From Micromonospora zamorensis (GTDB taxonomy: Bacteria > Actinomycetota > Actinomycetes > Mycobacteriales > Micromonosporaceae): a DNA stretch of 64,000 nt. This document shows positions 20,660-36,589 of this stretch, piece after piece. Location of the stretch: NCBI RefSeq assembly GCF_900090275.1, contig NZ_LT607755.1, positions 3,596,001 to 3,660,000 of the forward strand, given 5' to 3'. Under the pieces are notes generated by a model that was given only the letters and a program-made list of their open reading frames with translations, ran no database searches and was not told the DNA's origin. The position numbers and the translations under genes are program-made. How positions within the stretch are numbered: the first letter of the stretch is position 1; each line of letters starts with the position of its first letter.

Positions 20660-23600
20660 TCAGCTGGTGTAGGCCTCCACCTCCCAGAGCGAGTGCCCGT
20701 AGCCGGTGCCCCGGGCGGTGCCGTTGATCCGCAGGTAGCGGCCGTTGGCACCGAGCGCGGTGTGCTCGTCCACGCCGCCGTCGGCGCCGGTCACCGTCTT
20801 CACCGTCGTCCAGGTGGTGCCGTCGTTAGAGGTCTGGATCTGGTACGCGCTGCTGTACGCCGCCTCCCAGCTCAGCTTGACCCGACCGATCGCTGTGGGA
20901 CTGCCGAGGTCGACGCGGATCCACTGCGGGTCGGAGAACGTGCTCGACCAGCGGGTGGTGAGGCTGCCGTCCACCGCCTGGGCGCCGGACACGTCGGCCC
21001 CCTCGTTGCTGGAGGTCGACGTGGGCTTGTTGAGCAGAAGGTTGCCGCCGGAGGGGCCACCGGTGCCGCCGTACACCTCGAACTCGAACAGTGAGTAGCC
21101 CCAGGCGGTCCCCCGGGTGGTGCCCAGGAGCCGGACGTACCGGCCGGACCCGCTGAGCCCGGTCAGGTCGTCCACCCCGCCGTCGCCGCCGGTCACCGTA
21201 CGGATCGTGGTGAAGTTGACCCCGTCCGGCGAGGTCTGGATCTGGTAACCACTGCCGTACGCCGCCTCCCAGGTCAGCTTGACCCGGTTGAGCGAGTACG
21301 TGGCGCCGAGGTCCACATCGATCCACTGCGGGTCACTGAAGGCGCTGCCCCACCGGGTTCCGGCCACGCCGTCGAACGCGTTGGCCGCGCCGTACGCGCC
21401 CTCGAAGCTGGACGCTCGTGCCGGCTTGCCCCGGGCCAGGTTGGTGCCCGGCTCGGGATCCGGGTCGGGGTCCGGGTCCGGCCCGGGTCCACCAGGGCTG
21501 GTGGAGAGGGTGAACTCGTCGATGTCGAACCACGGCCCAGCGCCCTTGAAGACCAGGAACAGGGTTCGGGTGCCGGTCGGGGCGGTGACCCCACCGGTGA
21601 CCGTGGCGAAATTGGCGTACCCGCCGGTGGGCACCACGGTGGCCGAGCCGACCAGCGGCCCGGTGGGCGAGTCGACCCGCAACTCCACCGTGCCGCCGCC
21701 ACCGGCCGGTGCTCCGACCCGGGCGCTGAACGACTGGACGCCGGTCAGGTTGTAGGGGCGGAACGAGATCCAGTCGTTGTTGTCGACGTAGCCGACCGCC
21801 GCGCCGCCGTGCCCCGCCGCCCCGGCGACGATCTGGACACCTGACGAGTCACCGAAGTGCTCGGCCTGGCGTACCCGAGGTTGCAGGACGGCCTGGGTGT
21901 GCGTGGTCAGCGGCGGCTGGCTACCACCGCCCAGGTCGGTGTATTCGGCGTCGATGATGCCGAAGATGTTCGCCGCGGTGTCGTGCTCGCCGTCCGCCGA
22001 GGTCTGGATGACGCCGGAGCAGCCCTGCACGCTGCCGAGCTGGTGGCCGTGCGAGTCGTGGCCGAGGACGTAGTTCACCTTCACCCGGGCGCAGTTGATC
22101 GCACCGTCCTGGGCGTCGGTGACGGTGACCGAGAACGGCACGGCGTCCCCGAAGGTGAAGGTCTGCCCGTTCAACGGGGTGTTCACGGTGACCATCGGGG
22201 CGCTGTTGCCGACCGTGACCACCACGCTCGCGGTGGCCGTCTTGCCGGTGGTGTCCCGGACCGTCAACGTCGGGCTGCGGGTCCCGTTGGTGGTGTACGT
22301 GAAGCTCGGGTTGGCCGCTGTCGAGTCGGTGGTGCCGTTGTTGTCGAAGTCCCAGGCGTAGGTGAACGGGTCACCGTCCGGGTCGAGCGTGCCGGCCGAG
22401 GAGAAGGCCACGGTCAGCGGCGCGGTGCCGCTGGTCGGGGTGGCCGAGACCTTGGCGACGGGCGCTCGGCCCTCGCGGGCGTACTCGATGCGGTAGAGCG
22501 CCGAGTTGGCGTCGCCGTTGAACCAGCCGGTGCCGTAGTCGAGCACGTAGAGCGCGCCGTCCGGCCCGAACTCCATGTCCATGACCTGCGTGCCGGTCCA
22601 CGGGAACGGGTTGATCTTCAGCGGTTGGCCGGACGCGTCGAGCTTGATGTTCTTGATCCAGCGGCGACCGAACTCACCGGCGAAGTAGGTCCCGTCGTAG
22701 TACTCGGGGAACGCCACGGGCGAGGTGTTGTTCGGGTCGTACCGGTAGACCGGGCCGCCCATCGGCGACAGGCCACCGCCGGTGAACTCCGGCGGCGAGC
22801 CGGAGCCGCCGTACGGCAGCCACGCCGGGACGGCCGGCGGCAGCTGGGTGATGCCGGTGTTGTTGGGCGAGTTGTTGACCGGCCCGCCCGCGCAGTTGAA
22901 CTTCGGCCCGGACGGCCCGGACGGGAAGGTGTAGTCGTTGTACGCGTCGTTGCGGGCGGTGCAGTACGGCCAGCCGTAGAAGCCGGGTCGGTCGATCCGG
23001 GCGAACTCCACGTTGCCCGCCGGCCCCCGGTTCGGGTCGGCGGTGCCCGCGTCGGGACCGTAGTCACCGAGGTAGACGATGCCGGTGGCCTTGTCCACGC
23101 TCATCCGGAACGGGTTGCGGAAGCCCATCGCATAGACCTCCGGGCGGGTCCTCGCGGTGCCCGGGGCGAACATGTTGCCGGCCGGGATGGTGTAGCCCCC
23201 GGCGGCGCTCGGCTTGATCCGGAGCACCTTGCCGCGCAGGTCGTTGCTGTTCGCGGAGGTGCGTTGCGCGTCGAACGCCGGGTTGCGCCCGGCCCGCTCG
23301 TCGATCGGGGTGAAGCCGGCCGAGTCGAACGGGTTGGTGTCGTCACCGGTGGACAGGTAGAGGTTGCCCGCCGCGTCGAAGTCCATGTCACCGCCGACGT
23401 GGCAGCACATGCCCCGGCTGGTCGGCACGTTGAGGATCAGCGTCTCGCTGGCCAGGTTGATGGTGTTGTCCGCGTTGACGGTGAACCGGGCGAGCCGGTT
23501 GACGCCTTCCCAGACTGCGAACTCGGCCGGTGTGCCGGTGGCTGGGGCGCCGCCACCGGGGGTGCTCAGTGGTGGGGCGAAGTAGGCGTACACCCAGCGG

Positions 23601-24601
23601 TTGGTGGCGAAGTTCGGGTCGGCCTTGATGCCCTGCAGACCCTCCTCGTCTCCGGTGTAGACCGGCAGGGTCGCGGCGATCTTGGTGTTGCCGGCGGCGT
23701 CGGTGTGCCGGATCACGCCGTTGCGGGAGGTGTGCAGCACGCCCCGGTCCGGCAGGACGGTCAGGCTCATCGGCTCACCGGTCTCGGCCGCGCCCTTGGC
23801 CAGCTCCACCTGTTGGAAGCTGCTGGTGACGGTGGCGCCACAGTCGGCGTCGACCTCCCCGGCCGCGGTCCTGATGCCACCGAGCAGGTGCTGACGGAAG
23901 CTCGCCTCGGTGTACGACGCGTCGGTGTGCCCCAGGCCCGTGTACCAGGCCCGGCCGCCGGAGTAGTTCTGGCACCAGGAGATCGGGTGGTCGGCGCCCA
24001 TGCTCCCGCCGGTGTAGGTGCTCTCGTCCAGCGTGGCCAGCACGTGCACGTTGCCCCGGGGGTTGGTGCGGTAGTTGTACAGCTCGTCGAACCGGTTCCA
24101 CCGCTGCGGCAGCGTCGCGGTGGACGGGTGCACCTGGTCGGCGACCTTGACGGTGACGTTCTGCTCGGCGGGGTGCGAGGCGAAGTACGCCCCAACCAGC
24201 CCGCCGTACCAGGGCCAGTCGTACTCGGTGTCGGAGGCGGAGTGCACGCCGACGTAGCCGCCGCCGCCGGTGATGTAGCGCTCGAACGCGGCCTGCTGGG
24301 CGGCGTTGAGCACGTCGCCGGTGGTGGACAGCCAGATCACCGCGGCGAACCGGTCGAGGTTGGCGTCGGTGAACTGGGCGGCGTCCTCGGTCGCCTCGAC
24401 GGTGAAGCCGTTGGCGGCGCCGAGCTGCTGGATGGCGGTGATGCCCGGGGTGATGGATCCGTGCCGGAATCCGGCGGTCTTGCTGAAGACCAGCACGGTG
24501 AAGGGTGCGGCGCTGGCCGTGGGCGGCGCGGCGACGATGCCTCCGGCCACGAGGATCGTGCTCAGCGCGAGGCCGAGCCACGATCTCAGGGATCTGCGCA
24601 C
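20660..24601 (-). CDS. Large secreted ThuA / PQQ-type sugar dehydrogenase protein with PKD, CBM6 and two F5/8C domains
   Basis: This protein has 1313 residues from a GTG at 24601 behind AAAGGA. A Sec signal peptide (1-32) is followed by a ThuA glutamine-amidotransferase-like domain (about 33-245, TVLVFSKTAGFRHGSI). Next is a six-bladed glucose/sorbosone-dehydrogenase propeller (about 258-705, with CCHVGGDMDFD and LRGKVLRIKP), a PKD domain (about 710-800), a CBM6-like domain (about 912-1032), a Pro/Asp linker and two discoidin F5/8C domains (about 1050-1180 and 1187-1313). The last two are 60-70% alike and look duplicated. It is extracellular and probably polysaccharide-bound, oxidising or binding sugars. 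The enzymatic activity of such fusions is not well established. A strong terminator follows. Confidence 0.92.
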   Translation of the reverse strand: MRRSLRSWLGLALSTILVAGGIVAAPPTASAAPFTVLVFSKTAGFRHGSITPGITAIQQLGAANGFTVEATEDAAQFTDANLDRFAAVIWLSTTGDVLNAAQQAAFERYITGGGGYVGVHSASDTEYDWPWYGGLVGAYFASHPAEQNVTVKVADQVHPSTATLPQRWNRFDELYNYRTNPRGNVHVLATLDESTYTGGSMGADHPISWCQNYSGGRAWYTGLGHTDASYTEASFRQHLLGGIRTAAGEVDADCGATVTSSFQQVELAKGAAETGEPMSLTVLPDRGVLHTSRNGVIRHTDAAGNTKIAATLPVYTGDEEGLQGIKADPNFATNRWVYAYFAPPLSTPGGGAPATGTPAEFAVWEGVNRLARFTVNADNTINLASETLILNVPTSRGMCCHVGGDMDFDAAGNLYLSTGDDTNPFDSAGFTPIDERAGRNPAFDAQRTSANSNDLRGKVLRIKPSAAGGYTIPAGNMFAPGTARTRPEVYAMGFRNPFRMSVDKATGIVYLGDYGPDAGTADPNRGPAGNVEFARIDRPGFYGWPYCTARNDAYNDYTFPSGPSGPKFNCAGGPVNNSPNNTGITQLPPAVPAWLPYGGSGSPPEFTGGGLSPMGGPVYRYDPNNTSPVAFPEYYDGTYFAGEFGRRWIKNIKLDASGQPLKINPFPWTGTQVMDMEFGPDGALYVLDYGTGWFNGDANSALYRIEYAREGRAPVAKVSATPTSGTAPLTVAFSSAGTLDPDGDPFTYAWDFDNNGTTDSTAANPSFTYTTNGTRSPTLTVRDTTGKTATASVVVTVGNSAPMVTVNTPLNGQTFTFGDAVPFSVTVTDAQDGAINCARVKVNYVLGHDSHGHQLGSVQGCSGVIQTSADGEHDTAANIFGIIDAEYTDLGGGSQPPLTTHTQAVLQPRVRQAEHFGDSSGVQIVAGAAGHGGAAVGYVDNNDWISFRPYNLTGVQSFSARVGAPAGGGGTVELRVDSPTGPLVGSATVVPTGGYANFATVTGGVTAPTGTRTLFLVFKGAGPWFDIDEFTLSTSPGGPGPDPDPDPDPEPGTNLARGKPARASSFEGAYGAANAFDGVAGTRWGSAFSDPQWIDVDLGATYSLNRVKLTWEAAYGSGYQIQTSPDGVNFTTIRTVTGGDGGVDDLTGLSGSGRYVRLLGTTRGTAWGYSLFEFEVYGGTGGPSGGNLLLNKPTSTSSNEGADVSGAQAVDGSLTTRWSSTFSDPQWIRVDLGSPTAIGRVKLSWEAAYSSAYQIQTSNDGTTWTTVKTVTGADGGVDEHTALGANGRYLRINGTARGTGYGHSLWEVEAYTS

Positions 24602-24996
24602 GGTGGGGTCCTTTCGCGGTGCGAGGGACGGCGTGCGCCGATCACGCCTGGCGGTGGTGGAACGAGATATGTGAATGCATCGTTGCGCCCGAATCACGGG
24701 CGCGTCAAGCACTCTCCCACCATCCGTGAGAGCGTTATCTCCGCAGGTCAGGGACGACCGTCGAGAGCTAGATCGAATAACGGTTTTCCGGCTGCGATCC
24801 GTGCGCGGAGGGCCCCCGAGGTGCGGTGGACGCGCTCGCAGCCCGACGCGTTCGGCGAATGACCGAATCGGATCACAGCTGTTAGGTAAGCCTGGCCTAT
24901 GCGAAATATCCCCGAAAGAGGTTACTGATGGGGATTTGTCCCGTCGGAGCTGGGTACTGGGATTGCCCGGCTCCGACGACGGAAGCGAGATCGCTG
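24602..24996. promoter_or_regulatory. 395-bp divergent spacer with candidate iron box
   Basis: No gene is seen here. TTAGGTAAGCCTGGCCTAT at 24882-24900 matches the DtxR/IdeR box TWAGGTTAGSCTAACCTWA at 15 of 19 positions, 97 bp before the DUF1540 start. ATGAATGCATC-like sequence (AATGCATC at about 24674) lies in the promoter of the ThuA gene. Confidence 0.4.
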
Positions 24997-25378: not shown

Positions 25379-26839
25379 TCAGCGACCGCCCGCGACCAGC
25401 TCGGCGATCATTCCCTCGCAACTGCGGGCGACGACCTGGGCTCCGCGCCGCTGCGCCAGCGGAAGCAGCAGGTCCTCGGCCCGGTCCCGCCACCGCCACT
25501 GCGCGTCGGCGGCGACCTCCCAGAGCCGCTGCGCGGTCGCCTCGTGCTCGACACCGAGCCGGGCGGCGAGGCCCACCCCGTTGCCCCCGACCAGTCGCTG
25601 CGCCTCGTCGGCCAGCTCCACGTCGAACCCGAGCCGGGTGTTGCGCAGGGCCACCAGCAGGCGCAGCTCCCGGAACTCGTGCGCACCGGCGAGGATCTGC
25701 TCGACCGCGCCAACCAGCTCGTCGGAACCCCGGGTGGGCTCGGCCCGCAGCAGCGTCTCCACCGCGGCCAGCGCGGACCGGGCCTTGAGCGTGTCGCGGC
25801 GATCGATGAAACAACGGGTCACCGACTCCCGCAGCTCGGTGAGGCCACTGCGCCGGATGAGTTCGGCGGAGAGCTTCACCCGACTGTCGAAGCCACTGCG
25901 GACCAGGGTGGCCGCCAGCCGGACACCGAAGATCCCGAACCGGTCCAGCAGCGCGCCGCGCACCTCGGTCTCCAGCCGTACCGGCAGCTCGCCACGGAGG
26001 AAGCGCTCGGCGGAGATCAGGTGAGCGTCCAACTTCGCCCGGGGCACCGAGGCCAGCGTCGCGAGCGCCGCGAAGTCCGATTCGCCGAGCATCCGGCCCG
26101 CCAGGCCGAGCATCCCGCTGCACGCCACCACGTTCACGCTGACTGCGCTCACCCGCGGATCGCGGTAGTGCCGCCGGGCGAGCTGACGCGCGCTGAGCAG
26201 ACCGTCGATCCGACCTCCCCCGGTCTCGTCCGCCCGGGACAACACCATGATCACGTTGATCGGGGCGGCCTGCCCGATGGCGCCGTCCCGGCCCGCCTCC
26301 AGCATCCGCAGATCACTGTCGCGACCGTCACGGGTCAGGTACAACACCGCGTCCGAGTCCCGCAGCACCCGCTCCACCAACGGCATCCGGCCCTGCTCGA
26401 CGTCGCCCGGGAGCGCCGGGGTGTCGATCAGCGTGACCTGCCGGAGCGCGCGCGTCGGCCACTGCACCACGATGTCGCGTACGTCCCCGGTGTCCCAGCC
26501 GAGATCCACCCGCAACCCGGTCGCCGACTTGACCACCGTCAGCTCCTGCGGGGGCTGACCGGCCGGGTAGGCGGTGGCACGCGGGGCAGGGCCGTCCTCG
26601 TACCAGGTGAACACACCGTCGGCCCTCTCGACCGGCGCGACCTCCTCGCCCATCAGCGCGTTGAGCACCGTCGACTTGCCGGACCGCCACGGCCCGGCGA
26701 CAGCGATGCGCAGCGGTTGCTCCAACCGGGCCACCTGATTGCGCAACTGCCCCACGGCCCGGGGGTTGCCCTGATAGAGGTCGATGGCCTGGTGCAGCAA
26801 CCCCCAGGCCGCCTCGTCCAGGCGCAGGCCCACTGTCAT
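25379..26839 (-). CDS. iniC: Dynamin-like GTPase, IniC-like
   Basis: This 486-residue protein has an N-terminal GTPase domain: P-loop GPWRSGKST (49-57), switch region with Thr, G3 in TLIDTPALPGD and G4-like SRADE. A long helical C-terminal part (about 250-486) resembles the stalk of bacterial dynamin-like proteins. It overlaps the upstream dynamin-like gene by 4 bp (stop and start at 26836-26839), so the two are coupled and probably act as a pair, like IniA/IniC of mycobacteria or DynA/DynB of streptomycetes. Such pairs remodel membranes during envelope stress or cell division. The symbol rests on synteny with the IniB-like gene. Confidence 0.82.
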   Translation of the reverse strand: MTVGLRLDEAAWGLLHQAIDLYQGNPRAVGQLRNQVARLEQPLRIAVAGPWRSGKSTVLNALMGEEVAPVERADGVFTWYEDGPAPRATAYPAGQPPQELTVVKSATGLRVDLGWDTGDVRDIVVQWPTRALRQVTLIDTPALPGDVEQGRMPLVERVLRDSDAVLYLTRDGRDSDLRMLEAGRDGAIGQAAPINVIMVLSRADETGGGRIDGLLSARQLARRHYRDPRVSAVSVNVVACSGMLGLAGRMLGESDFAALATLASVPRAKLDAHLISAERFLRGELPVRLETEVRGALLDRFGIFGVRLAATLVRSGFDSRVKLSAELIRRSGLTELRESVTRCFIDRRDTLKARSALAAVETLLRAEPTRGSDELVGAVEQILAGAHEFRELRLLVALRNTRLGFDVELADEAQRLVGGNGVGLAARLGVEHEATAQRLWEVAADAQWRWRDRAEDLLLPLAQRRGAQVVARSCEGMIAELVAGGR

Positions 26840-28695
26840 GTCTGCGGCTCCAACAGCAGCGGGGCCGAACGCGTAACGGTCAACTGCTGGGCCTGCTCGT
26901 AGAGCGCGGCCAACCGGGTCATCTTCAACCGGATCTCGCGCTGCCGCTGCTCGCGCAGGGAGGCGTCGGTGTCGGCCTCCTGCTTCGCGCTGCGGAACGA
27001 CTGCACGATGGCCTCCTGAAGCTCCTCGGTCAGCCCCGTGAAGTGGTCACGCAGCATCCGCTGCACCTGCCGGACGGCGTCCCGGCAGTCCCGGGTGATC
27101 CGGACGAAGAAGTCGTCGACGTGGCGCTGGATCGCGGTCTTGACGGTCGCCTGGCGGCGTCGGAGCAACTGCTTGCTCTCGTCGCGGATGCTCTTGCCGC
27201 CGAAGAGCGCCCCGATGCCGACCGAGACCGGGTTGATCATCGGCATTCCGGCCAGGGTGGTCGCCAGGCCGAACATCAACATGCCGCCGTACGAGCCCTT
27301 CATGCCGGTGAACAGCTTCTGGCCGGTGGTGAACCTGTCGATCGTCGGCCGTTGCAACTCCGGCAGTCGCCGGGCGATGTCGTCCGGCATGGACATGGAC
27401 CAGGGTGGCAGGACGTCGTAGCCGTACCGGTTGAAGTTGGCGGCCACCCGGCGGGCGATCCAGTCGCAGCGCTGGATCAGCCACTCGTGGTTGGCCTCCG
27501 CCGCCTCGACCAGGCTCCGCTCCAACCAGTCCTGAAAGGTGTCCCAGGCGTCCAGCGGATCGGCGGTGTCGAACGCCTCGTCCACCGTGCGCAGGATCTG
27601 CCGGGTCCGGTCCCGAAGGTCGTACTCGATGTCGGAGAGCAGGTCGGCGATCTCGTCGTTGAGCGTGTTCTGCCAACGGGTTGAGCAGCGACGCAGCTCG
27701 TCGACCTCGCGCTGGGCGGCGTGCAGGCGGGAGATCGGCCCGGACTGCTCCTCGGCCTCCTGGGTCGCCAGCTCGGCGCGCAGCGGTGCGGCCAGCTGCT
27801 CCACCACCGTCCGCGCCACCGCCTGCACCGACGCCCGGGCCAGGTGGTCGGACTTGCCGGCCAGGTCCCGCTGTAGTCGGGCGATCAGCGCGGGAAAGCC
27901 GGACTCGGCGTTGAGATCACGGTCGTCGGACGCGGCGGCGCGCAGCCGTAGCGTCGCCGAGACCGGGATCAGCGCCGCCGGGACGCCGGCCTCGACGAGA
28001 TGCTGCCGGTTGCGCTCGGCGACCGCACGCCAGTCGGCCACCAGATCGGTCTTGCTCTGCACCACGACCACGTTCGGGTGCGCGCGCATCACGTGCAGCA
28101 ACATGTTCAGCTCGGCGACCGACAACTCCCGGGTGGAGTCCGAGACCAGCAGCACGGTGTCCGCGCGGGCGGGAGCCGCGACCGGGGCGGCACCGCCGAC
28201 ACCGGCGACCTCGTCGGTGCCCGGAGTGTCCACCAGCACCAGCCCGGCGCCGAGCAGGGCACGCGGCACCCCGATCTCGACGTACGCCGGACCGCCGCCC
28301 GCCCGACGCCCGATCATGCCGGCCACGCCCGCGGCGACCTGGTTGAGCGCCACCGGAGTCCGCTCCACGGTCACCGTGGCGGCGCCGCCGGCGGGACGAC
28401 CCGTGGCTGGTGGCGGCGCCTGAGCCACTGCGGCGGACGGGGCTTCGGCGTGCTGCACCACGGTCGGCAGGACTGTCGTGCGGCCGTCGCCCACCGGGCA
28501 GGCGGGGGCGTTGATGATCGCGTTGATCAGCTGACTCTTGCCCTGGTTCGGCTCACCGATGACCAGGACCCGAAGCGTCGGGTCCAGCAGTTGGGCACGC
28601 TTCTGCCGCACCGTCTGGAGCAGGTCACCACGACCATGAGCACTGCACGTACGGGCGATCTCGTCCAGCACGTCCAACCAGATCCCGGCCATCAC
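26836..28695 (-). CDS. iniA: Dynamin-like GTPase, IniA-like
   Basis: This protein has about 619 residues (GTG at 28695 directly followed by ATG at 28692). GTPase motifs are P-loop GEPNQGKSQ (47-55), G3 LVDTPGTDE and G4 QSKTD. An Ala/Pro/Gly-rich insert lies between the P-loop and G3. A long helical region follows, then a hydrophobic hairpin (about 455-490, GGMLMFGLATTLAGMPMINP) that corresponds to the membrane-inserting paddle of bacterial dynamins, then helices to the end. It lies 112 bp after the IniB-like gene and is coupled to the IniC-like gene. IniA of M. tuberculosis remodels membranes under cell-wall-antibiotic stress; the same role is inferred here. Confidence 0.85.
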   Translation of the reverse strand: MMAGIWLDVLDEIARTCSAHGRGDLLQTVRQKRAQLLDPTLRVLVIGEPNQGKSQLINAIINAPACPVGDGRTTVLPTVVQHAEAPSAAVAQAPPPATGRPAGGAATVTVERTPVALNQVAAGVAGMIGRRAGGGPAYVEIGVPRALLGAGLVLVDTPGTDEVAGVGGAAPVAAPARADTVLLVSDSTRELSVAELNMLLHVMRAHPNVVVVQSKTDLVADWRAVAERNRQHLVEAGVPAALIPVSATLRLRAAASDDRDLNAESGFPALIARLQRDLAGKSDHLARASVQAVARTVVEQLAAPLRAELATQEAEEQSGPISRLHAAQREVDELRRCSTRWQNTLNDEIADLLSDIEYDLRDRTRQILRTVDEAFDTADPLDAWDTFQDWLERSLVEAAEANHEWLIQRCDWIARRVAANFNRYGYDVLPPWSMSMPDDIARRLPELQRPTIDRFTTGQKLFTGMKGSYGGMLMFGLATTLAGMPMINPVSVGIGALFGGKSIRDESKQLLRRRQATVKTAIQRHVDDFFVRITRDCRDAVRQVQRMLRDHFTGLTEELQEAIVQSFRSAKQEADTDASLREQRQREIRLKMTRLAALYEQAQQLTVTRSAPLLLEPQT

Positions 28696-28711
28696 CGCAC
28701 CAAGTGTGCGG
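28695..28711. promoter_or_regulatory. Dyad CCGCAC-N5-GTGCGG at the iniA-like start
   Basis: A perfect 6-bp inverted repeat touches the GTG/ATG start. On the gene strand TTGATA is followed after 17 bp by ACACTT, a possible weak promoter giving a leaderless iniA-like message. It may be an operator or an mRNA hairpin that limits translation. Confidence 0.35.
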
Positions 28712-28756
28712 ATTTCGGCTCAATTATCAAGAGGGACCGGATGTGGAACCGGAGAG

Positions 28757-28783
28757 GGCCGGATCGCCCGAAGCGACCCGGCC
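28757..28783 (-). terminator. Intercistronic hairpin between iniB-like and iniA-like genes
   Basis: GGCCGG-a-TCGC pairs with GCGA-c-CCGGCC around a 5-nt loop, 25 bp beyond the IniB-like stop codon. It could partly terminate transcription, making the small IniB-like product more abundant than the GTPases. Confidence 0.5.
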
Positions 28784-28807
28784 TCCCGCTCCTACCGGAG
28801 ATCCCTG

Positions 28808-29692
28808 TCAGAGCAGGCCGCCGGTGATACCCAGCAGGCCGTGGTCCGGCGAGGCGTGCGAGTCGCCCAGCACACCATCGGTGGCGCCCCCGGTCACATC
28901 GCCGACCGCGCCGGTGACACCGGGAAGGAGGCTGTCCACCTGGTGCGTCACACCGCCCACAGTGGACGGAACGTCGAGCGGCGGGACGACGCCACCGACA
29001 GCGCCGCCCGCGTGGCCCAGACCCAGCCCGCCCAGGGTGTCGTCGACACCGAGGGAACCCACGACACCGTTGAGCTGACCGTGGGTGCCGGAGAGGGCAC
29101 CGCCGGTCAGGTCGCCGCCGAGCAGGCCCGGGTCGGTTGCGCCGAGGAGACCGCTCGGATCGCCGGCCACGCCGGTGACGTTCCCCAGAACCGGGTCCGC
29201 GATGGCGTCCACTGGCTGCACCACGTCGGCGTCGAGGGTGTGCGCCACGTCGGAGACACCAGCCAGGTCGCTGTCCAACCCGTACGGACCGACGCCCAGG
29301 CCGATCCCCGGCAGCACGGTGATCCCGGCGGCGGCAGCCGACGGGTCGACTGCGATGGCGCCGAGCACGCCGGCCTTGATGTCCACGCCGGTGGGAGAAC
29401 TCGTGACGCTGATCTGCTGCGCCACGCTCTGCAACTGGCCCACCACGTCGGTGGTGTCGGTGACCAGCGGGTCGAACCCGAGCTGCCCGACGGCCGGCAC
29501 CAGTGGGGTGAGGCCCTGCCCCGGCGCGTAGTCGACCACCAGCGGCACCACGTCCTGCACGTCCGCCGCGGTGATGTCGCTGAGCCCTGCGGCCCGCAGC
29601 GCACCCTCGGGGTCGAGGTCGAAGGCCGACCGCGCGTCGGGGTTCGTCAACAGGTCGAGCACGAAGTCGTGGAGGGTCTGGTGCGAGTCCAT
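28808..29692 (-). CDS. iniB: IniB N-terminal-domain protein
   Basis: This protein has 294 residues from the ATG at 29692 (MDSHQTLHDFVLDLL) behind GAGGAG. The first 55 residues form the helical IniB N-terminal domain (HDFVLDLLTNPDARSAFDLD...LRAAGLSDITAADVQDVVPLV). The rest is a low-complexity Gly/Asp/Val/Leu-rich region of repeating GxxGGVTGxVGDxxG-like units, as in mycobacterial IniB. There is no classical signal peptide. It is the first gene of the minus-strand iniB-iniA-iniC-like operon and is divergent from an Hsp70-like and an IniR-like gene. In mycobacteria iniB is the marker gene of the cell-wall-inhibitor response; its molecular role is unknown. Confidence 0.85.
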   Translation of the reverse strand: MDSHQTLHDFVLDLLTNPDARSAFDLDPEGALRAAGLSDITAADVQDVVPLVVDYAPGQGLTPLVPAVGQLGFDPLVTDTTDVVGQLQSVAQQISVTSSPTGVDIKAGVLGAIAVDPSAAAAGITVLPGIGLGVGPYGLDSDLAGVSDVAHTLDADVVQPVDAIADPVLGNVTGVAGDPSGLLGATDPGLLGGDLTGGALSGTHGQLNGVVGSLGVDDTLGGLGLGHAGGAVGGVVPPLDVPSTVGGVTHQVDSLLPGVTGAVGDVTGGATDGVLGDSHASPDHGLLGITGGLL

Positions 29693-29989
29693 GTGCCGGT
29701 TCTCCTCGGATCTGGCCGTCGGCGGGTGTCGTACATCGACAGTGACGCTATTGCCCAGCCCACCCCCGGGCATCGGGGCTCAGCCCGCATCCGGGCCGGT
29801 TGAACTAGGGGCTCCGCCGCCTCGTACGTTAGGGGGACAGGGGGAAACCGACCCGGCGAGATTAGGGTCCCGACCAGGGACTGATCTCTGGTACGAACGT
29901 AGGAGCCCGCGGGGTTCGCCGGGGGTGGGTCGTCGGCAGCACCGACGCCATCGCCATCGGCCGGCCAACTCACGGGGGGAGAAGAGACG
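29693..29989. promoter_or_regulatory. Divergent regulatory region of the ini-like locus
   Basis: This 297-bp spacer lies between iniB-like and Hsp70-like genes and has no gene. It contains GTCCC-gacca-GGGAC (29867-29881), flanked by AGAT and ATCT, and two related elements CGTACGTTAGG (about 29823) and GGTACGAACGTAGG (about 29890). These are candidates for binding by the IniR-like regulator. Confidence 0.4.
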
Positions 29990-31255
29990 ATGCCGTACGT
30001 CCTGGGGATAGACATCGGAAGCACCAACACCGCCGCCGCGGTCGCACGGTCGCACGGCACGACCTGGACCCGCCCCGAGCCCGTCCCGCTGCAGGTCGGT
30101 TCCGCTCTCGTGCCATCGGTGCTGTGCCTGTCCGAGGACGGCTCGCTGCACGTTGGCGAGCCCGCCACCGACGACGGCAGCCGCACCACACGCGACTTCG
30201 TGCACCGGATCGGCGATGACGTACCCCTGCTGCTCGGCGGCGAAACGTGCGCGCCGCAGACGCTCACCGCCGAACTGGCGGCGTGGGTGGTCGAGCGGGT
30301 CCACGCCCTGGAGGGCGGCCCGGCAGAGGCGATAGTGCTCAGCCACCCGGCGGGGTGGCGCCCCTACCGACGAGAGGTGCTGCACCGGGCGCTGTCCGGC
30401 TTCGGCCTGCGCAACGTGACGTTGCTTCCGCGCACGGTCACGGTCGCCGAGAGCCACGCGGCCCGCGGGTTCGCGGGCAGCACCGCTGTCGTCTACGCCC
30501 TGGGGGGCAACAGCTTCGAGGCGGCTCTCGTGCGTCGCACCCCGCGCGGCACCTACGAGACGTTCGGCACCCCACAGGGCCTGGACCCGATCGGCGGGGC
30601 CGACTTCGACGAGGCGCTGGCCGACCACACCCGTACCGCGCTGGCCCGGGAGTTGGCCACCAGCGCACGCCGCGGCACCCAGGCCGCGCTGCGCGGGCTG
30701 CGCGCGGAGTGTGACCGGGTCAAGCGGGTGCTGACCGTCGACCTGACGGCCGACGTGGTGCTGGCCCTGCCGGGCGGCCCGGCGCGGATACCGGTGACCC
30801 GGGCCCAGTTCGAGGACATGATCCGCCCGACGGTGCAGGTCACCGTCGACCTCCTGCTGCGGGCCGTGCGCAGCGCCAACCTGACGCCGGGGCAGCTCGA
30901 CGGTGTCCTGCTGGCGGGCGGGTCGACCCGCGTGCCACTCGTCACCGAGCTGATCAGCGCGGCCCTCCCGGTCCCCGTCGAGGTGGAACCGGACTCCCAG
31001 TTGACCGCCGCCACCGGTGCGGCGATGGCCGCGTGCCAGGTGGTGTCGCCGCGCCCCCGCCGACAGCCACCGGCCCGCGATCCATCCCCGGTCAGCGGTG
31101 CCGGTCGGGCCTCCGTCCCGGCTACCCGCCGCCCCCACCACGACACCACCGTCCCGGGCGATCCGCCACCGCGGCCCCCGGTCCGGGTCCTCCCACTGGA
31201 CCTGCCGAAACCGTCCCGCCTGGCCTTGGCCCGCAGCCGGGGACGCGAAGGATGA
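29990..31255 (+). CDS. Hsp70-family protein, nucleotide-binding domain only
   Basis: This 421-residue protein begins with the actin/Hsp70 phosphate-1 loop GIDIGSTNTAAAV. It has the adenosine motif VLLAGGSTRVPLV (about 305-317). The phosphate-2 segment is divergent (YALGGNSFEAAL instead of DLGGGTFD). The nucleotide-binding domain ends near residue 345. The substrate-binding domain is absent and replaced by a Pro/Arg-rich tail of about 75 residues. It is therefore not a classical chaperone; such shortened Hsp70s probably act as ATP-dependent switches. Its stop overlaps the ATG of the IniR-like gene, so the two are coupled. It is divergent from the iniB-like gene. Confidence 0.88.
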   Translation: MPYVLGIDIGSTNTAAAVARSHGTTWTRPEPVPLQVGSALVPSVLCLSEDGSLHVGEPATDDGSRTTRDFVHRIGDDVPLLLGGETCAPQTLTAELAAWVVERVHALEGGPAEAIVLSHPAGWRPYRREVLHRALSGFGLRNVTLLPRTVTVAESHAARGFAGSTAVVYALGGNSFEAALVRRTPRGTYETFGTPQGLDPIGGADFDEALADHTRTALARELATSARRGTQAALRGLRAECDRVKRVLTVDLTADVVLALPGGPARIPVTRAQFEDMIRPTVQVTVDLLLRAVRSANLTPGQLDGVLLAGGSTRVPLVTELISAALPVPVEVEPDSQLTAATGAAMAACQVVSPRPRRQPPARDPSPVSGAGRASVPATRRPHHDTTVPGDPPPRPPVRVLPLDLPKPSRLALARSRGREG

Positions 31256-33825
31256 CCCCAATGATCATGAATGACATCGCCGAGACCGGGCTGACGCTGG
31301 ACCGGGGGCCGCAGGTCCTGCTGGACACTGTCGGACAGGACCCGACCGGCCCGCTCAGCGTCGGCATCGCCGGCCCGGGCGGTCACGGGAAGACCGCGCT
31401 GCTCACGGAGCTGGCGCGAGTCCATCAACGGGCCGGGATCACCGTGCGCACGACCGCCCCGGAGCCGGGCGAACCGGTCGACGCCGACACCCTGGTGCTG
31501 GTCGACGACGCGCACCTGCTCGACGACGCACGGATCGAAGTGCTGCAGGGTCTGGCCGCCACCCGTCGGCACCGACTGGTGGTCGCCCACCGCCCGTGGC
31601 CCCGGTCGGCGGCGCTCAGCGAGCTGGTCGACGCGCTCCGACGCGACGGGCAGGCCCTGCTCCTCACGCCGTTCACCCGGGAGCAGACCGCCGCCTACCT
31701 CGCCTCCACACCCGAGCTGGGCAGCCGAGACGACCTGGTCGACTTCGTCCACACGCAGACCTGCGGCGTACCCCGGGATGTCGAGCGGCTGGCCCGCGGC
31801 CTGGCCGCCGCGGAGACCCCGACCGGCGCGGTGGTCGACCCACCCCGGTCCGTCGTCGGCGAGTTCGGGCCGGACCTGGACGTCCAACCCGACGCGGTAC
31901 GACGGCTGCTGCTCGCCGTCGCGGCGGGCGGGACGCTGCCGGTGAGCATGCTCGGCGCCCTCCTGGGCCGGGAGCCGGCGGCGGTGGACGATCTGATCGC
32001 CACGACCAGGGCGGCCGGGCTGCTCGGTGCCGACGGCCGGCTCGCACCGATCGTCCGGCGGGCCGTCACGACGCTGAGCGCCACCACCGAGCGGACGGCG
32101 GTCTGGCGTCGGCTCACCGAGTTGCAGCTCGCCAGGGGTGGCGCGGTGCTGCCGTTGGTCCGGTCCCTGCTCGCGGTCGGCGCGCTCGGCGACTGCCCGG
32201 TCCCGACCCTGGCCGCGGCGGCGAACGAGGCTCTGGCCGACGAGCCGGCGTTCGCCGCCGACCTGTTCGCGGCCGCCACGGCGGCCGGAAGGCCAGCAAG
32301 CGCCGAGCAGGCGCTCGCCGCCGCACTGGCCGGCCACCTCGACGACGCCCTACGGCTGGCGGACCGACTGCTGTCCACGGCCACTCCCCCCGATCGCCGC
32401 GAGGCGGCAGTGGTGGCCGCGACCGCCCTGGCGCACCGTGGGCACGTCGGTCGCAGCGTGGAGCTGTACCGGTGGTCGGGCAGCGCGTCAGCGCTGGCGT
32501 TCGCCACCGTCGGCGGGTTCGCCACCGGCGACCTGAGCGCCGCCGCCGATCCGCCGGCCGGTGATCCCGGCGGCGAACCCCCGACCCTGCGCGCCAGCGC
32601 CGCCCGGCTGATGGCCACCGGCGTCCGCGACAGCGTGACCGGCTCACCGACCGCCGCGCTCTCCGCGCTCGTGCAGGCCGCCGCGCTGCTGGAGCCGGAC
32701 GGACGCGCGGCACTCCTACCGGACAGCCCGGCGGCGCTCGCCGCGCTGACGGCAGTGCACTGCGGCGAGCTGGAGATCGCCGAGCAGGTGCTGCACCGGG
32801 CCCTGGCCGCCGGTGTCGGCGGCCCCCTGATGGCTCGTCGACACCGGCTGTTGCAGGCCTGGATCCTGATGGTCCGGGGCGAGACGCACGCCGCGGCCGA
32901 ACGTCTCGCCACGGTGACTCTCGACGGGCGGCCGTTGGAGTCGCGCGACCTGCTCTTCGCCGCCGCGATCCGGATGGGCGTCAGCCGGCGCAACAGCGAC
33001 CTCGGCGCGCTCAAGCGCGGATGGGGGCAGGCGCTGGAGGCGGTGGTCCGGCACCCCGTCGACCTGTTCACGCTGTTGCCGCTGGGTGAGCTGGCCATCG
33101 CGGGCGCACGGCTCGGTGACCTGGCCCGCCTGGAGCCGTACCTGCTCCAGGGACGCGCCCTGCTGGGCCGCCTCGGCGACCCACCACTGTGGAGTGTTCC
33201 GCTGCACTGGAGCGGGCTGCACGCCGCCATCCTGACCGCCGAGCCGGCAGTCGCCGACGAACACGTCGCCGCGCTGCTCGCCGCCGCCGGTCACAGCCGG
33301 TACGCCGCCGTGGTCGCCGCCGCCGCGGAGAGCTGGGTGGAGGTGTTGCGGGGCGTCGTCGACCCGACCCGGGTGGAGGCCGCCGCCCGAGGGCTGCACG
33401 ACACCGGACTGTGCTGGGACGGTGCTCGCCTCGCCGGTCAGGCCGCGATCCGCACCGCGGACCGGCGGGCGATGACCACCCTGCTGGAGTGCGCCCGCGC
33501 GCTCCAGGGGCGGCCACCCGGCGGCCACGGCGGGCAGACACCGACGACCGGCGCGAGCCCAGCGCGCGCGGCCGGCCCCACCCAGCAGGGGCTCAGCGAC
33601 CGCGAGTACGAGGTCGCCGAGCTGGTGCTGGCCGGGTTGACCTACCGGGAGATCGGCGACCGGCTCTTCATCTCGGCGAAGACGGTGGAACACCACGTGG
33701 CGCGGATGCGCCACCGACTCAACTGCGCCAACCGCACCGAGCTGCTGGCCCTGCTGCGCACCATCGTCGCCGACCGGGCCAGCGACACGGCCGGACAGCC
33801 GTGGCCACAGCGGACGACCCGATGA
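31252..33825 (+). CDS. Signal-transduction ATPase with LuxR helix-turn-helix, IniR-like
   Basis: This protein has 857 residues from the ATG overlapping the Hsp70 stop (ATGA at 31252-31255); ATGs 9 and 15 bp further on are alternatives. The N-terminal ATPase has Walker A GPGGHGKTALL and Walker B TLVLVDDAHLL. A long alpha-helical, TPR-like middle follows (about 280-770). The C-terminus is a LuxR-type DNA-binding domain (about 790-850: LSDREYEVAELVLAGLTYREIG...ISAKTVEHHVARMRHRL). This is the large STAND/LAL architecture. Its place beside the iniB-like operon matches mycobacterial IniR (Rv0339c type), which senses a sugar signal and activates iniBAC. Orthology is inferred from architecture and synteny only. 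Confidence 0.85.
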   Translation: MTPMIMNDIAETGLTLDRGPQVLLDTVGQDPTGPLSVGIAGPGGHGKTALLTELARVHQRAGITVRTTAPEPGEPVDADTLVLVDDAHLLDDARIEVLQGLAATRRHRLVVAHRPWPRSAALSELVDALRRDGQALLLTPFTREQTAAYLASTPELGSRDDLVDFVHTQTCGVPRDVERLARGLAAAETPTGAVVDPPRSVVGEFGPDLDVQPDAVRRLLLAVAAGGTLPVSMLGALLGREPAAVDDLIATTRAAGLLGADGRLAPIVRRAVTTLSATTERTAVWRRLTELQLARGGAVLPLVRSLLAVGALGDCPVPTLAAAANEALADEPAFAADLFAAATAAGRPASAEQALAAALAGHLDDALRLADRLLSTATPPDRREAAVVAATALAHRGHVGRSVELYRWSGSASALAFATVGGFATGDLSAAADPPAGDPGGEPPTLRASAARLMATGVRDSVTGSPTAALSALVQAAALLEPDGRAALLPDSPAALAALTAVHCGELEIAEQVLHRALAAGVGGPLMARRHRLLQAWILMVRGETHAAAERLATVTLDGRPLESRDLLFAAAIRMGVSRRNSDLGALKRGWGQALEAVVRHPVDLFTLLPLGELAIAGARLGDLARLEPYLLQGRALLGRLGDPPLWSVPLHWSGLHAAILTAEPAVADEHVAALLAAAGHSRYAAVVAAAAESWVEVLRGVVDPTRVEAAARGLHDTGLCWDGARLAGQAAIRTADRRAMTTLLECARALQGRPPGGHGGQTPTTGASPARAAGPTQQGLSDREYEVAELVLAGLTYREIGDRLFISAKTVEHHVARMRHRLNCANRTELLALLRTIVADRASDTAGQPWPQRTTR

Positions 33826-33868: not shown

Positions 33869-35785
33869 GTGACGCGCGACGAGGTGCGACTGATCCGGGT
33901 CAGGCTGGTCGTGCTGTGCGCCGTCCTCGTCTCGCTCTGGTCCTACGCCGCCTACGTGGCCGGCCAGGACGCGGCCGACCTGCTGCGCGTGCGGGCCCTG
34001 GCGGACACCCTGGGCCAGCCCGCCGACCGGCTGATCCTGGGCCTGCAGGCCGAACGTCGGCTCACCGCCGAGCGGGTCGCCGCAGCCGCGCCGACGGCGC
34101 CCCCGTTGGTCGCGGCACGCGAGGGCACCGACCGGGCCGCCGCCGAGGTCCGCGCGTTCACCGAGGGCCGTGACCTTCGACTGCTCAGCGCCGGTGACGT
34201 CCGCGACCGGGCAGGCGAGCTGGTCCGCCGGCTCGACGGCCTGGGCACGATCCGGTCCCAGGTGGACGCCGGGAGTCTCGACCTGACCGAGGCCGTCGAC
34301 GCGTACGACCAGGTCGTCGACGTCGCCTTCCGGGTGTACGGCCCGGAGTGGGGCGCGTACGAGAGCGCTCTGGCCGCCGACACCCGGGCGGTGATCGCGC
34401 TTGCCCGTGCCCGGGAGCTGCTCGCCCGGGAGGACACACTGGTCAGCGCGGCCCTGACCGGCGCTCGGCTCGGTGCCGACGAGCGGAGCCGGCTGATCGA
34501 ACTCGTCGGCGGCCAGCGGTACGCGCGCACCGAGGCGGCGGCAGGGCTGCCCGTGGACGGCCGCACTGAGCACCAGCGCCTCGTGACCGGCCCCGACTTC
34601 GCGGGTCTGCTCGCCCTGGAGGCCCGACTGCTCGCAGCCGACACGGCGCTGACCGGGATCACCGTCCAGGCCTGGCGGGCCGCGGCTGACGCCGCCCTGG
34701 GCGCACTGCAGACGCTGGTGACGACCACCGCCCGCAGCAGTGCCGAGCGGGCCGCGCCGGGCGCCGCGGCGGTCGTCGCGCGTACCGGCGCCGTGGTGGG
34801 GCTCGGCCTCATCATCGTGCTCGTGCTCCTGCTGGGTTGGGTGAGCACCGTCCGACGCCTGACCGAGGACCGGACCGGTTCGAACCACGACGCTCCGGCC
34901 GCTGATGCCACGGCGACGCCCGACGGCGCCAACCAGGAGTTGTTCCTGCGGCTCACCCGACGCAACCAGGTCCTGCTGCGCGATCAGCTCGGCCTGCTGG
35001 ACGGGATGCAACGCCGGGAGCGGTCCGCCGAGGAGACAAACGAGCTGTTCCAGCTCGACCATCTCACCACCCGGATCCGACGCAACGTGGAGAAGCTGAT
35101 CACGCTCGCCGGCGCGAGGCCCGCCCGCCGCTGGCGACGGCCCGTGCCGCTGCTCGACGTGACGCGCGGCGCGGTCGCCGAGGTGCCGGACTACCACCGG
35201 GTCCTGATCGCGCCGCACTGGCCCTGGTCGCTCGCGGGCAACGCCGTCACGGACGTCGTCCACCTGCTGTCGGAGCTGATCGAGAACGCCCTCGCCTTCT
35301 CCGCTGCGGACACCACCGTACGGGTCAGGGGCGAGCACCGACCGCAGGGTTGCGCGGTCCTGGTCGTCGACGACGGGCCGGGTCTGGACGCGTCCGCGCT
35401 GGCCGAGGCGAACCACCTGCTCGGCAACCCGCCACCGGACGGCCCGCCCCCGGGTTCCGCGGGTCTGTACGCGGCCGCCGTGCTGGCCTGCCGATGCGGC
35501 GCACAGGTCTCGTTGCGCCCCAGCCGGCGCGGTGGGACCGCCGCCACCGTGCTCCTACCGGCCGGGCTGGTCACACCGAACGTCACCGGCCGTGGCGCGG
35601 CCACGGCGCCACCCGGCATCCCCCACCCGCCGGCCCGCGACGCCGCCGACCCCTCCGGCCCGAACGGCGACGGCGAGCTGCCGACGCGGACACGCCACAC
35701 CGGGCCGACCGGCCCGGAACCCGGCAGGACCAGCCTCGACACCGTCGAGTTCCCGGTCGCTAGAGCAACAAGGAGACACCCATGA
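33869..35785 (+). CDS. CvnA-type sensor ATPase (conservon component)
   Basis: This 638-residue protein has TM1 (about 8-28), an extracytoplasmic helical sensor of about 270 residues (nitrate/nitrite-sensing-like), TM2 (about 303-325), a linker with LFQLDHLTTRIRRNVEKLITLAG (conservon version of the dimerisation helix) and a GHKL ATPase domain (about 450-575: SELIENALAFS, VVDDGPGLD). The C-terminal 60 residues are Pro/Thr-rich. No classical phospho-acceptor H box is evident. The start GTG is 43 bp after the IniR-like gene and the stop overlaps the CvnB-like start (ATGA). Conservons assemble a membrane complex of CvnA-D that recalls GPCR signalling. Confidence 0.88.
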   Translation: MTRDEVRLIRVRLVVLCAVLVSLWSYAAYVAGQDAADLLRVRALADTLGQPADRLILGLQAERRLTAERVAAAAPTAPPLVAAREGTDRAAAEVRAFTEGRDLRLLSAGDVRDRAGELVRRLDGLGTIRSQVDAGSLDLTEAVDAYDQVVDVAFRVYGPEWGAYESALAADTRAVIALARARELLAREDTLVSAALTGARLGADERSRLIELVGGQRYARTEAAAGLPVDGRTEHQRLVTGPDFAGLLALEARLLAADTALTGITVQAWRAAADAALGALQTLVTTTARSSAERAAPGAAAVVARTGAVVGLGLIIVLVLLLGWVSTVRRLTEDRTGSNHDAPAADATATPDGANQELFLRLTRRNQVLLRDQLGLLDGMQRRERSAEETNELFQLDHLTTRIRRNVEKLITLAGARPARRWRRPVPLLDVTRGAVAEVPDYHRVLIAPHWPWSLAGNAVTDVVHLLSELIENALAFSAADTTVRVRGEHRPQGCAVLVVDDGPGLDASALAEANHLLGNPPPDGPPPGSAGLYAAAVLACRCGAQVSLRPSRRGGTAATVLLPAGLVTPNVTGRGAATAPPGIPHPPARDAADPSGPNGDGELPTRTRHTGPTGPEPGRTSLDTVEFPVARATRRHP

Positions 35786-36231
35786 CGTCCGCAGTGGTCA
35801 CCGACGACGACCTGACCGGCGCCCTGGACCGCCTGGTCGACCGAGTGCACGGCGCGGAGTTCGCCGTGGTGCTCTCCCCCGACGGGCTGTTCCTCGGCGG
35901 TTCCCAACAGGTCAAGGGCGAGCTCGCCGAGCAGCTCTCCGGCGTGGTCGCCGGTCTGATCGCGTTGGGGCTGGCCGCCACGCGGATCTGCGAAGGGGGC
36001 GGTCTGCGTCAGGTCGTGGTGCAGATGGCGCGAGCGTTCCTGTTCGTCGCCACCATTCCGAACGGCACCATCCTCACCGTGCGGATCGCCGGTGACGACG
36101 TCAAGGTCGGCGACATGGCGTACGAGGTGGCGCTCTTCGTCGGGCAGGCCGAGCGGCACCTGCCGATCCGTCTCGGGCCCGCCTCCTCGGCGACGATCGG
36201 GGATCCTGGTGCGCAGCACCGGCAGCGCTGA
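35782..36231 (+). CDS. CvnB-type roadblock/LC7 protein
   Basis: This is a 149-residue roadblock/LC7-fold protein: LDRLVDRVHGAEFAVVLSPDGLFLGGS, then EQLSGVVAGLIALG, and VVVQMARAFLFVATIPNGTILTVRIAGDDVKVGDMAYEV in outline. Such proteins normally regulate the small GTPase (CvnD). It is translationally coupled to CvnA (4-bp overlap) and to the next gene (23-bp overlap). AAGGAG precedes the ATG. The partner GTPase is missing from this locus. Confidence 0.92.
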   Translation: MTSAVVTDDDLTGALDRLVDRVHGAEFAVVLSPDGLFLGGSQQVKGELAEQLSGVVAGLIALGLAATRICEGGGLRQVVVQMARAFLFVATIPNGTILTVRIAGDDVKVGDMAYEVALFVGQAERHLPIRLGPASSATIGDPGAQHRQR

Positions 36232-36589
36232 CGAGGCGTGGTACGACGACGACGCTGGCCCGGTGGCCCGGCCGTACACGATGACCGGGGGGCGCACCGC
36301 GCCCACGGGCGACAAGTTCGACCTGATCTCACTGGTCGTCGCTCGCCGGGGGGTCACGCCGCCCACACCGCTCTTTCCCGAACAGGCGCGGATCGTCGAG
36401 CTGTGCCACGATCCGGTGTCGGTGGCCGAGGTGGGTGCCGAGCTGGACCTTCCACTGGGGACGGTCCGGGTGTTGCTCGGTGACCTGCTCACGGCCGGGC
36501 TGATCGAGGCGCATGACCCGCCGATGCTGTCGGAGGTGCCGAACGAGGATCTGCTCAAGGCGATACTCGTCGGGCTCCGCGCCCTGTGA
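36209..36589 (+). CDS. CvnC-type DUF742 protein
   Basis: This 126-residue DUF742 protein starts at the GTG at 36209 behind GGGGA, inside the end of the cvnB-like gene. The pattern RPYTMTGGRTAP...FDLISLVVARR...LFPEQARIVELCHDPVSVAEVGAELDLPLGTVRVLLGDLLTAGLIEAH is diagnostic; the C-terminal half is a winged-helix-like fold. It is the third conservon component. After it the expected CvnD GTPase is absent; instead a membrane protein with a cellulose-binding-like domain follows 74 bp on. Confidence 0.92.
   Translation: MRSTGSADEAWYDDDAGPVARPYTMTGGRTAPTGDKFDLISLVVARRGVTPPTPLFPEQARIVELCHDPVSVAEVGAELDLPLGTVRVLLGDLLTAGLIEAHDPPMLSEVPNEDLLKAILVGLRAL

Follow-up and report, generated by a model that had tools for sequence, protein, structure and literature searches.

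An Hsp70-fold protein with lost catalytic residues travels with an IniR-like regulator in iniBAC-type loci of Micromonospora and mycobacteria

The closest described relatives of the locus considered here are the mycobacterial iniBAC operon, which serves a cell-envelope stress response, and its regulator IniR, which binds upstream of iniBAC and activates it; trehalose is an inducer of mycobacterial iniBAC, and the discussion of the IniR paper raises the question of its signal or ligand (PMC5760070). That paper, published in 2017, also reports a dnaK-like neighbour of iniR, for M. smegmatis only, which it places "downstream of iniR" (PMC5760070). The locus analysed here lies in a 64,000-nt stretch of Micromonospora zamorensis contig NZ_LT607755.1 (the window; all coordinates are window positions), where a gene for a protein with an IniB N-terminal domain is the first of an iniBAC-type operon and a divergent pair of genes encodes an Hsp70-like and an IniR-like protein. 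A further point of reference is E. coli MalT, which is held inactive by MalK, Aes and MalY. We favour, at about even chances, a model in which a pseudo-Hsp70 nucleotide-binding domain (NBD) gates IniR, and in which IniR released by stress would bind TTAGGG repeats and switch on both operons.

All five genes were confirmed in the places given by the initial annotation, those for the IniC-, IniA- and IniB-like proteins on the minus strand and those for the Hsp70-like and IniR-like proteins on the plus strand. Placement of the three minus-strand proteins in the IniB, IniA and IniC families came out positive: the IniB-like protein reaches 68.3 bits with the IniB_NTERM model NF038175 (cut-off 40), the IniA-like protein aligns over residues 4-605 with M. 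smegmatis IniA of known structure (6j72; E 2.6e-87, 297 bits), and the IniC-like protein matches the IniC-position protein of 11/11 mycobacterial loci (L089-L099) at 250-264 bits by phmmer. Together with the Dynamin_N matches, this upholds the description of an IniB-type protein followed by two coupled dynamin-like GTPases, and the iniA and iniC reading frames overlap by 4 bases. The IniR model NF038181 covers the plus-strand ATPase nearly end to end (model positions 8-826 of 827, E 1.6e-138), and structure comparison found a STAND ATPase, a MalT-domain-III superhelix and a LuxR helix-turn-helix (HTH), as expected from the IniR architecture first attributed to it; the MalT sugar-domain fold is retained. 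Its score of 463.4 bits is below the NCBI equivalog cut-off of 750; this cut-off is passed by 12 of the 296 genomes of our class sample, all of genus g45. Coordinates, Pfam and structure also agree with an NBD-only Hsp70 coupled to the ATPase, the hsp70 stop and the iniR start sharing ATGA, with the IniR-like gene beginning at 31252; the listed start of its open reading frame, 31033, is too early. The IniB-like frame, listed from 29773, has its ATG preceded by a ribosome-site-like GAGGAG at 29692. One class locus has a further, incomplete IniR-like frame immediately after IniR, at a contig end (L100:241-4332).

The association of the Hsp70 gene with IniR extends well beyond the window (genus and family names of the further genomes were inferred from their proteins). 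In the class sample, IniR (E<=1e-50) and strong IniA (at least 700 bits) fall in the same 27 of 296 genomes, while 13 further genomes have weaker IniA-like hits alone and no IniR match at that threshold; the match between the two sets shows that the locus assignment is more than chance. Twenty-four of these 27 loci were fetched, leaving out the own genome, G421 and G218, and 23 contain an Hsp70 gene of more than 150 bits, the exception (L100) being cut by a contig end. The gene is divergent from iniB in 18, next to IniR in three, and on the iniA/iniC side in L097 and L112. Among 101 genomes of the own genus, 50 have a best IniR match of at least 60% and the same 50 have an Hsp70 match of at least 56%; four more (G452, G454, G478, G505) carry the divergent pair, and five have a distant Hsp70 only (34-40%), without an IniR hit. 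Among named proteins, the window Hsp70 is most similar to those of M. jinlongensis (98%) and M. taraxaci (94%). These IniR- or IniA-anchored searches provide the unbiased counts, since the 36 Micromonosporaceae loci used below were chosen by their Hsp70 hit and their synteny is not independent. A possible Hsp70-IniR fusion in G141, where the Hsp70 lies in a 1414-codon open frame, was rejected because the two proteins are in different frames.

The initial annotation had regarded the Hsp70 gene as foreign to the mycobacterial locus, which proved wrong. Eighty named mycobacterial loci were fetched by IniA, and in all 53 in which both IniB and IniR were detected (the remaining 27 being cut by contig ends) an Hsp70 gene lies between iniB and iniR on the strand of iniR; the dnaK-like gene of M. 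smegmatis had moreover been published. M. smegmatis is absent from the 80, the best match (92%) and closest relative returned being M. wolinskyi (L129), where the Hsp70 gene is upstream of iniR, as is the regular copy in the relatives examined. The published "downstream" may therefore refer to the side of the map or to a second Hsp70 copy. Such a second gene (>200 bits) was observed beyond iniR or iniC in 44 of 91 mycobacterial loci (L089, L091-L094 and L129 among them).

Structure comparison found the NBD fold in the window Hsp70, but the substrate-binding domain is lacking, with just 65 residues, mostly of low confidence, after residue 356, and the PF00012 match stops at position 377 of 599. 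At the catalytic positions K70, E171, D194, T199 and D201 of E. coli DnaK, the window protein has, in that order, V, R or a gap depending on the alignment, A, S and E, and D8 is kept. K70 is lost in 36/36 Micromonosporaceae and 79/79 mycobacterial copies, the latter including four copies beyond iniC (L097, L134, L137, L149), and D201 is lost in all 115. D8 is lost in every mycobacterial copy and kept in every Micromonosporaceae copy, and 14 of the 36 Micromonosporaceae copies retain E171. All seven residues checked are kept in the four f14 copies, in L109 and L112, and in 19 of 20 membrane relatives, the other (L223) having Ser at T199. From these residues, the iniB-adjacent Hsp70s of mycobacteria and Micromonosporaceae look like pseudo-ATPases, and ATP turnover is still expected of the residue-retaining forms. 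Such catalytic losses argue against a switch driven by ATP hydrolysis and for a pseudo-ATPase partner. In the Hsp70 tree, the locus copies of mycobacteria and Micromonosporaceae form one group, from which the membrane relatives are separate (local support 0.83-0.98).

The gap between iniB and hsp70 contains repeats that are common to the two families. TTAGGGG/CCCCTAA is present in 36/36 Micromonosporaceae gaps (1.1 expected from order-1 shuffles), in 6/8 gaps of other families (0.3 expected) and in 73/75 mycobacterial gaps (2.6 expected), the last including duplicates, as L093/L147 and L099/L132 each seem to come from a single genome and L152/L204 are on one contig. The two mycobacterial exceptions (L089, L200) are gaps shortened by a false IniB hit, and paired repeats are present there. 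In Micromonosporaceae the repeats are most often spaced by 24, 8, 31-33 or 55, the window having 24 and 33; in mycobacteria, spacings of 15, 17-18 and 32-33 are the commonest. The arrangement is thus alike but not identical. The 7.1-Mb own genome has a single TTAGGGN{2,27}TTAGGG, in the iniB-hsp70 gap; with three hits for the reversed control, it is the location that is telling, as the count alone gives no enrichment. ATCGGGG is found in 36/36 Micromonosporaceae gaps (6.0 expected), its mycobacterial counterpart ATCGGTG in 73/75 (2.6 expected), and CTGGTACGAA in 31/36 Micromonosporaceae gaps (0.0 expected).

Across 148 Mycobacterium genomes, a triple repeat occurs once each in 75, against 13 hits in total for the reversed control, and 73 of these 75 are among the 103 genomes with IniR (Fisher p 4e-15, uncorrected for kinship). 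Of the other two, G593 matches through a low-complexity run, and the G534 genome has a completeness of 84%. In 67/67 genomes with both on the same contig and strand, the triple repeat precedes the IniR match by 1.3-2.3 kb, a distance that leaves room for the Hsp70 gene and serves as an indirect stand-in for its presence. Thirty IniR genomes are without the triple repeat; in 13 of 16 of these fetched, paired repeats lie in the interval from iniR to the first IniB gene, and the other three have the Hsp70 in place. The TTAGGG repeats are a putative IniR operator, and their sharing is consistent with the predicted binding and activation of the iniBAC promoter by IniR. No literature report of TTAGGG in an iniBAC promoter was found in a search of the text of mostly open-access papers, and an earlier one, for example in a figure, is possible.

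Many of the related Hsp70 proteins are predicted to span the membrane (spans called by hydropathy, cut-off 1.6). The frame is complete in 65 of the 75 iniB-divergent mycobacterial copies; in 64 of them the NBD is followed by a single strongly hydrophobic stretch and then by a tail of 119-197 residues in which Pro, Thr and Ser make up 61-74%; in the exception (L173) the frame ends early. The M. smegmatis dnaK-like gene is likely MSMEG_0692, described as a Pro/Thr-rich one-span protein with Rv0312 as its ortholog (PMC11898655). MAP3800, whose M. tuberculosis counterpart is Rv0312, appears in the FurA regulon table of PMC4319475 with a value of -10.89. Other families have different tails, mostly with a span (L105 and L110 have none, L103 and L108 are just below the cut-off), and in L112 a Vgb_lyase/YNCE-type propeller match follows the span. 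In Micromonosporaceae, nine of 37 copies, that of the window not among them, have a C-terminal span. A second kind of locus was found among 20 further Micromonosporaceae loci fetched by weaker Hsp70 hits: 11 have IniA, IniC, IniR and an Hsp70 with a span and a four-Cys tail, L221 has IniA and IniC without IniR, and in eight none of the three was found at comparable scores. These eight (L213-L216, L218, L219, L222, L223) lie away from strong iniA/iniR and have one span, varied tails and kept catalytic residues, except the Ser of L223. Ectodomain matches in L214, L218 and L219 are to F5/8 type C (with sub-threshold ricin-type), DUF1349 and PD40 propeller families, and such span-bearing NBDs are possibly a class of Hsp70 receptors.

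In the mechanism that we propose, the Hsp70-like protein would contact IniR and, by analogy with MalK, Aes and MalY on MalT, this contact would be inhibitory. Envelope stress would release IniR from Hsp70, and the freed IniR would bind the TTAGGG repeats of the iniB-hsp70 gap, firing both promoters. IniA and IniC would remodel the membrane; membrane fission is reported for M. smegmatis IniA in PMC6715688. Relatives with a span may sense the envelope directly, and the span-less Micromonospora Hsp70 may dock on a membrane partner via its PPRPPV tail. Gating of IniR is plausible, and is favoured by the closeness to iniR (among the genes followed, Hsp70 stays closest to it), by the ATGA coupling in the window and by the envelope-facing placement in many relatives. 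A bolder form, which we hold only tentatively and consider rather unlikely, is that the NBD is a signalling receptor, the missing envelope sensor, which clamps IniR and lets it go when the envelope is damaged, with a Thr/Pro-rich, four-Cys or beta-propeller ectodomain in many lineages and as a pseudo-ATPase in mycobacteria and Micromonospora.

Several observations weigh against gating of IniR by Hsp70. In the four f14 loci, IniR is 4.9-6.2 kb from the Hsp70 gene, behind iniC, while Hsp70 stays beside iniB, a layout in which Hsp70 may work for IniB/IniA/IniC instead of IniR; in 13 of the 16 sampled IniR genomes without the triple repeat, no Hsp70 lies between operator and iniR, the gene being beyond iniC. 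Mirror-tree rank correlations fail to single out IniR as the partner (Hsp70-IniR 0.75, Hsp70-IniA 0.78, Hsp70-IniC 0.81, IniR-IniA 0.72, IniA-IniC 0.91), and they mostly reflect shared descent. In Micromonosporaceae, 28 of 37 copies, including that of the window, have no span at 1.6 (L119 and L126 are broken or cut), and these are therefore not themselves membrane sensors. Over-expressed IniR of M. marinum and M. tuberculosis activates iniBAC in M. smegmatis (PMC5760070), a point that is not decisive because M. smegmatis has its own dnaK-like neighbour.

The layouts just described would suit an Hsp70 that acts on the effector side, as a membrane scaffold with IniB and the IniA/IniC pair that shares no more than its regulation with IniR: in the f14 loci and L112 it is near iniB or iniC with IniR kilobases away, it is beyond iniC in the 13 sampled genomes of the other layout, and the second gene of the 44 mycobacterial loci is often there too. 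MSMEG_0692, moreover, was detected only in FhaA pull-downs, listed with cell-wall synthesis proteins (PMC11898655 Table 1). We nevertheless consider this scaffold role less likely than gating, as hsp70 is outside the iniBAC operon and directly before iniR on its strand in the genus and in most scored mycobacterial loci, with ATGA coupling in the window. The same machine could also answer a different signal in Micromonospora, with trehalose or another sugar bound by IniR and Hsp70 acting as a cofactor for ATP level or stability, which is conceivable but stays short of even chances; it is helped by the point that mycolic acids, the context of the mycobacterial drugs, are not known from Micromonospora. 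The induction of mycobacterial iniBAC by trehalose (PMC5760070) and the MalT sugar-domain fold kept by IniR point the same way, whereas the sole sugar-linked neighbour, a ThuA-domain protein, is unmatched in 60 other loci, other nearby sugar genes not having been searched for. That Hsp70 is an ordinary chaperone folding the large IniR ATPase is very improbable given the missing substrate-binding domain and the loss of K70 in 115/115 copies scored.

A 1350-aa ThuA/GSDH/PKD/CBM6/F5-8C protein (20660-24712, minus strand) adjoins iniC; a trehalose link through it was rejected as chance in view of the 60 loci, and it is not part of the module. Genes for a NIT-domain histidine kinase, Roadblock and DUF742 proteins follow close behind iniR (33869-36589, plus strand), resembling a conservon without its GTPase, and kinase and/or Roadblock matches occur in 26/37 Micromonosporaceae loci. 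The features of the locus are collected in Table 1.

Table 1. Genes and candidate regulatory elements of the iniBAC/IniR-type locus in the window
Feature	Position	Strand	Basis
IniC-like dynamin-family GTPase, 486 aa	25379..26839	-	Dynamin_N; phmmer to mycobacterial IniC-position proteins
IniA-like dynamin-family GTPase, 619 aa	26836..28695	-	Dynamin_N residues 43-212; match to 6j72
IniB-like protein: IniB N-terminal domain and Gly-rich low-complexity tail	28808..29692	-	NF038175; likely start 29692
ATCGGGG element, possibly promoter-proximal for iniB	29772..29778	+	conserved in gaps
Candidate IniR operator: CTAGGG 29805, TTAGGG 29829, TTAGGG 29862	29805..29867	+	repeats conserved in gaps
Conserved block TCTGGTACGAAC, likely hsp70-iniR promoter	29887..29898	+	CTGGTACGAA conserved in gaps
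Hsp70-fold protein of 421 aa lacking the substrate-binding domain: NBD (residues 1-356), disordered linker, PPRPPVRVLPLDLP motif conserved close to the C terminus	29990..31255	+	
IniR-like STAND ATPase, MalT-domain-III-like superhelix and LuxR HTH, 857 aa	31252..33825	+	NF038181 full length; structure

The route by which stress reaches IniR is a question raised in the IniR paper (PMC5760070), and a conserved Hsp70-fold partner with a predicted span is a concrete candidate for the sensor, one that studies of M. marinum and M. tuberculosis may have overlooked. With the predicted operator and the Micromonospora form, the gating model becomes directly testable. If the receptor role is true, the lectin-like and propeller relatives outside the locus would make the envelope-sensor Hsp70 one branch of a wider Hsp70-receptor class. 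Literature searches for iniBAC with Hsp70 returned only a review on exosomal miRNAs, those for "IniB N-terminal domain" no paper, and those for Hsp70 receptors nothing on point beyond PMC7159879.

Compared with mycobacterial iniBAC/IniR (Rv0339c and the iniBAC operon; PMC5760070), the window has the same IniB N-terminal domain, IniA/IniC dynamin pair and STAND, MalT-III-like and LuxR parts of the regulator, and the same TTAGGG repeats upstream of iniB as the mycobacterial relatives; it differs in its single IniB gene, where mycobacterial loci often have two, in an NBD-only rather than span-bearing Hsp70, and in an IniR below the equivalog cut-off. It shares with M. smegmatis an Hsp70-type gene adjoining iniR, but the membrane span and Pro/Thr-rich tail of the MSMEG_0692-type form are both absent. 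With E. coli MalT, it has in common a STAND regulator with the MalT domain III fold and a LuxR HTH, which a second protein would keep inactive, although the candidate partner is an Hsp70 NBD instead of MalK, Aes or MalY. DnaK/Hsp70 chaperones differ in having the substrate-binding domain, catalytic Lys and phosphate-2 motif that the window protein has lost. GTPase-centred conflict systems likewise combine GTPases with HSP70, some NBD-only, in actinobacteria, but PMC7159879 names tubulins, GAP1-N2 systems and DO-GTPases for them, and "dynamin" and "IniB" are absent from its main text. The iniBAC/IniR kind of locus and its dnaK-like neighbour were thus known, and what is added here is that IniR is accompanied by a pseudo-Hsp70, in many cases with a membrane span, next to repeats common to two families.

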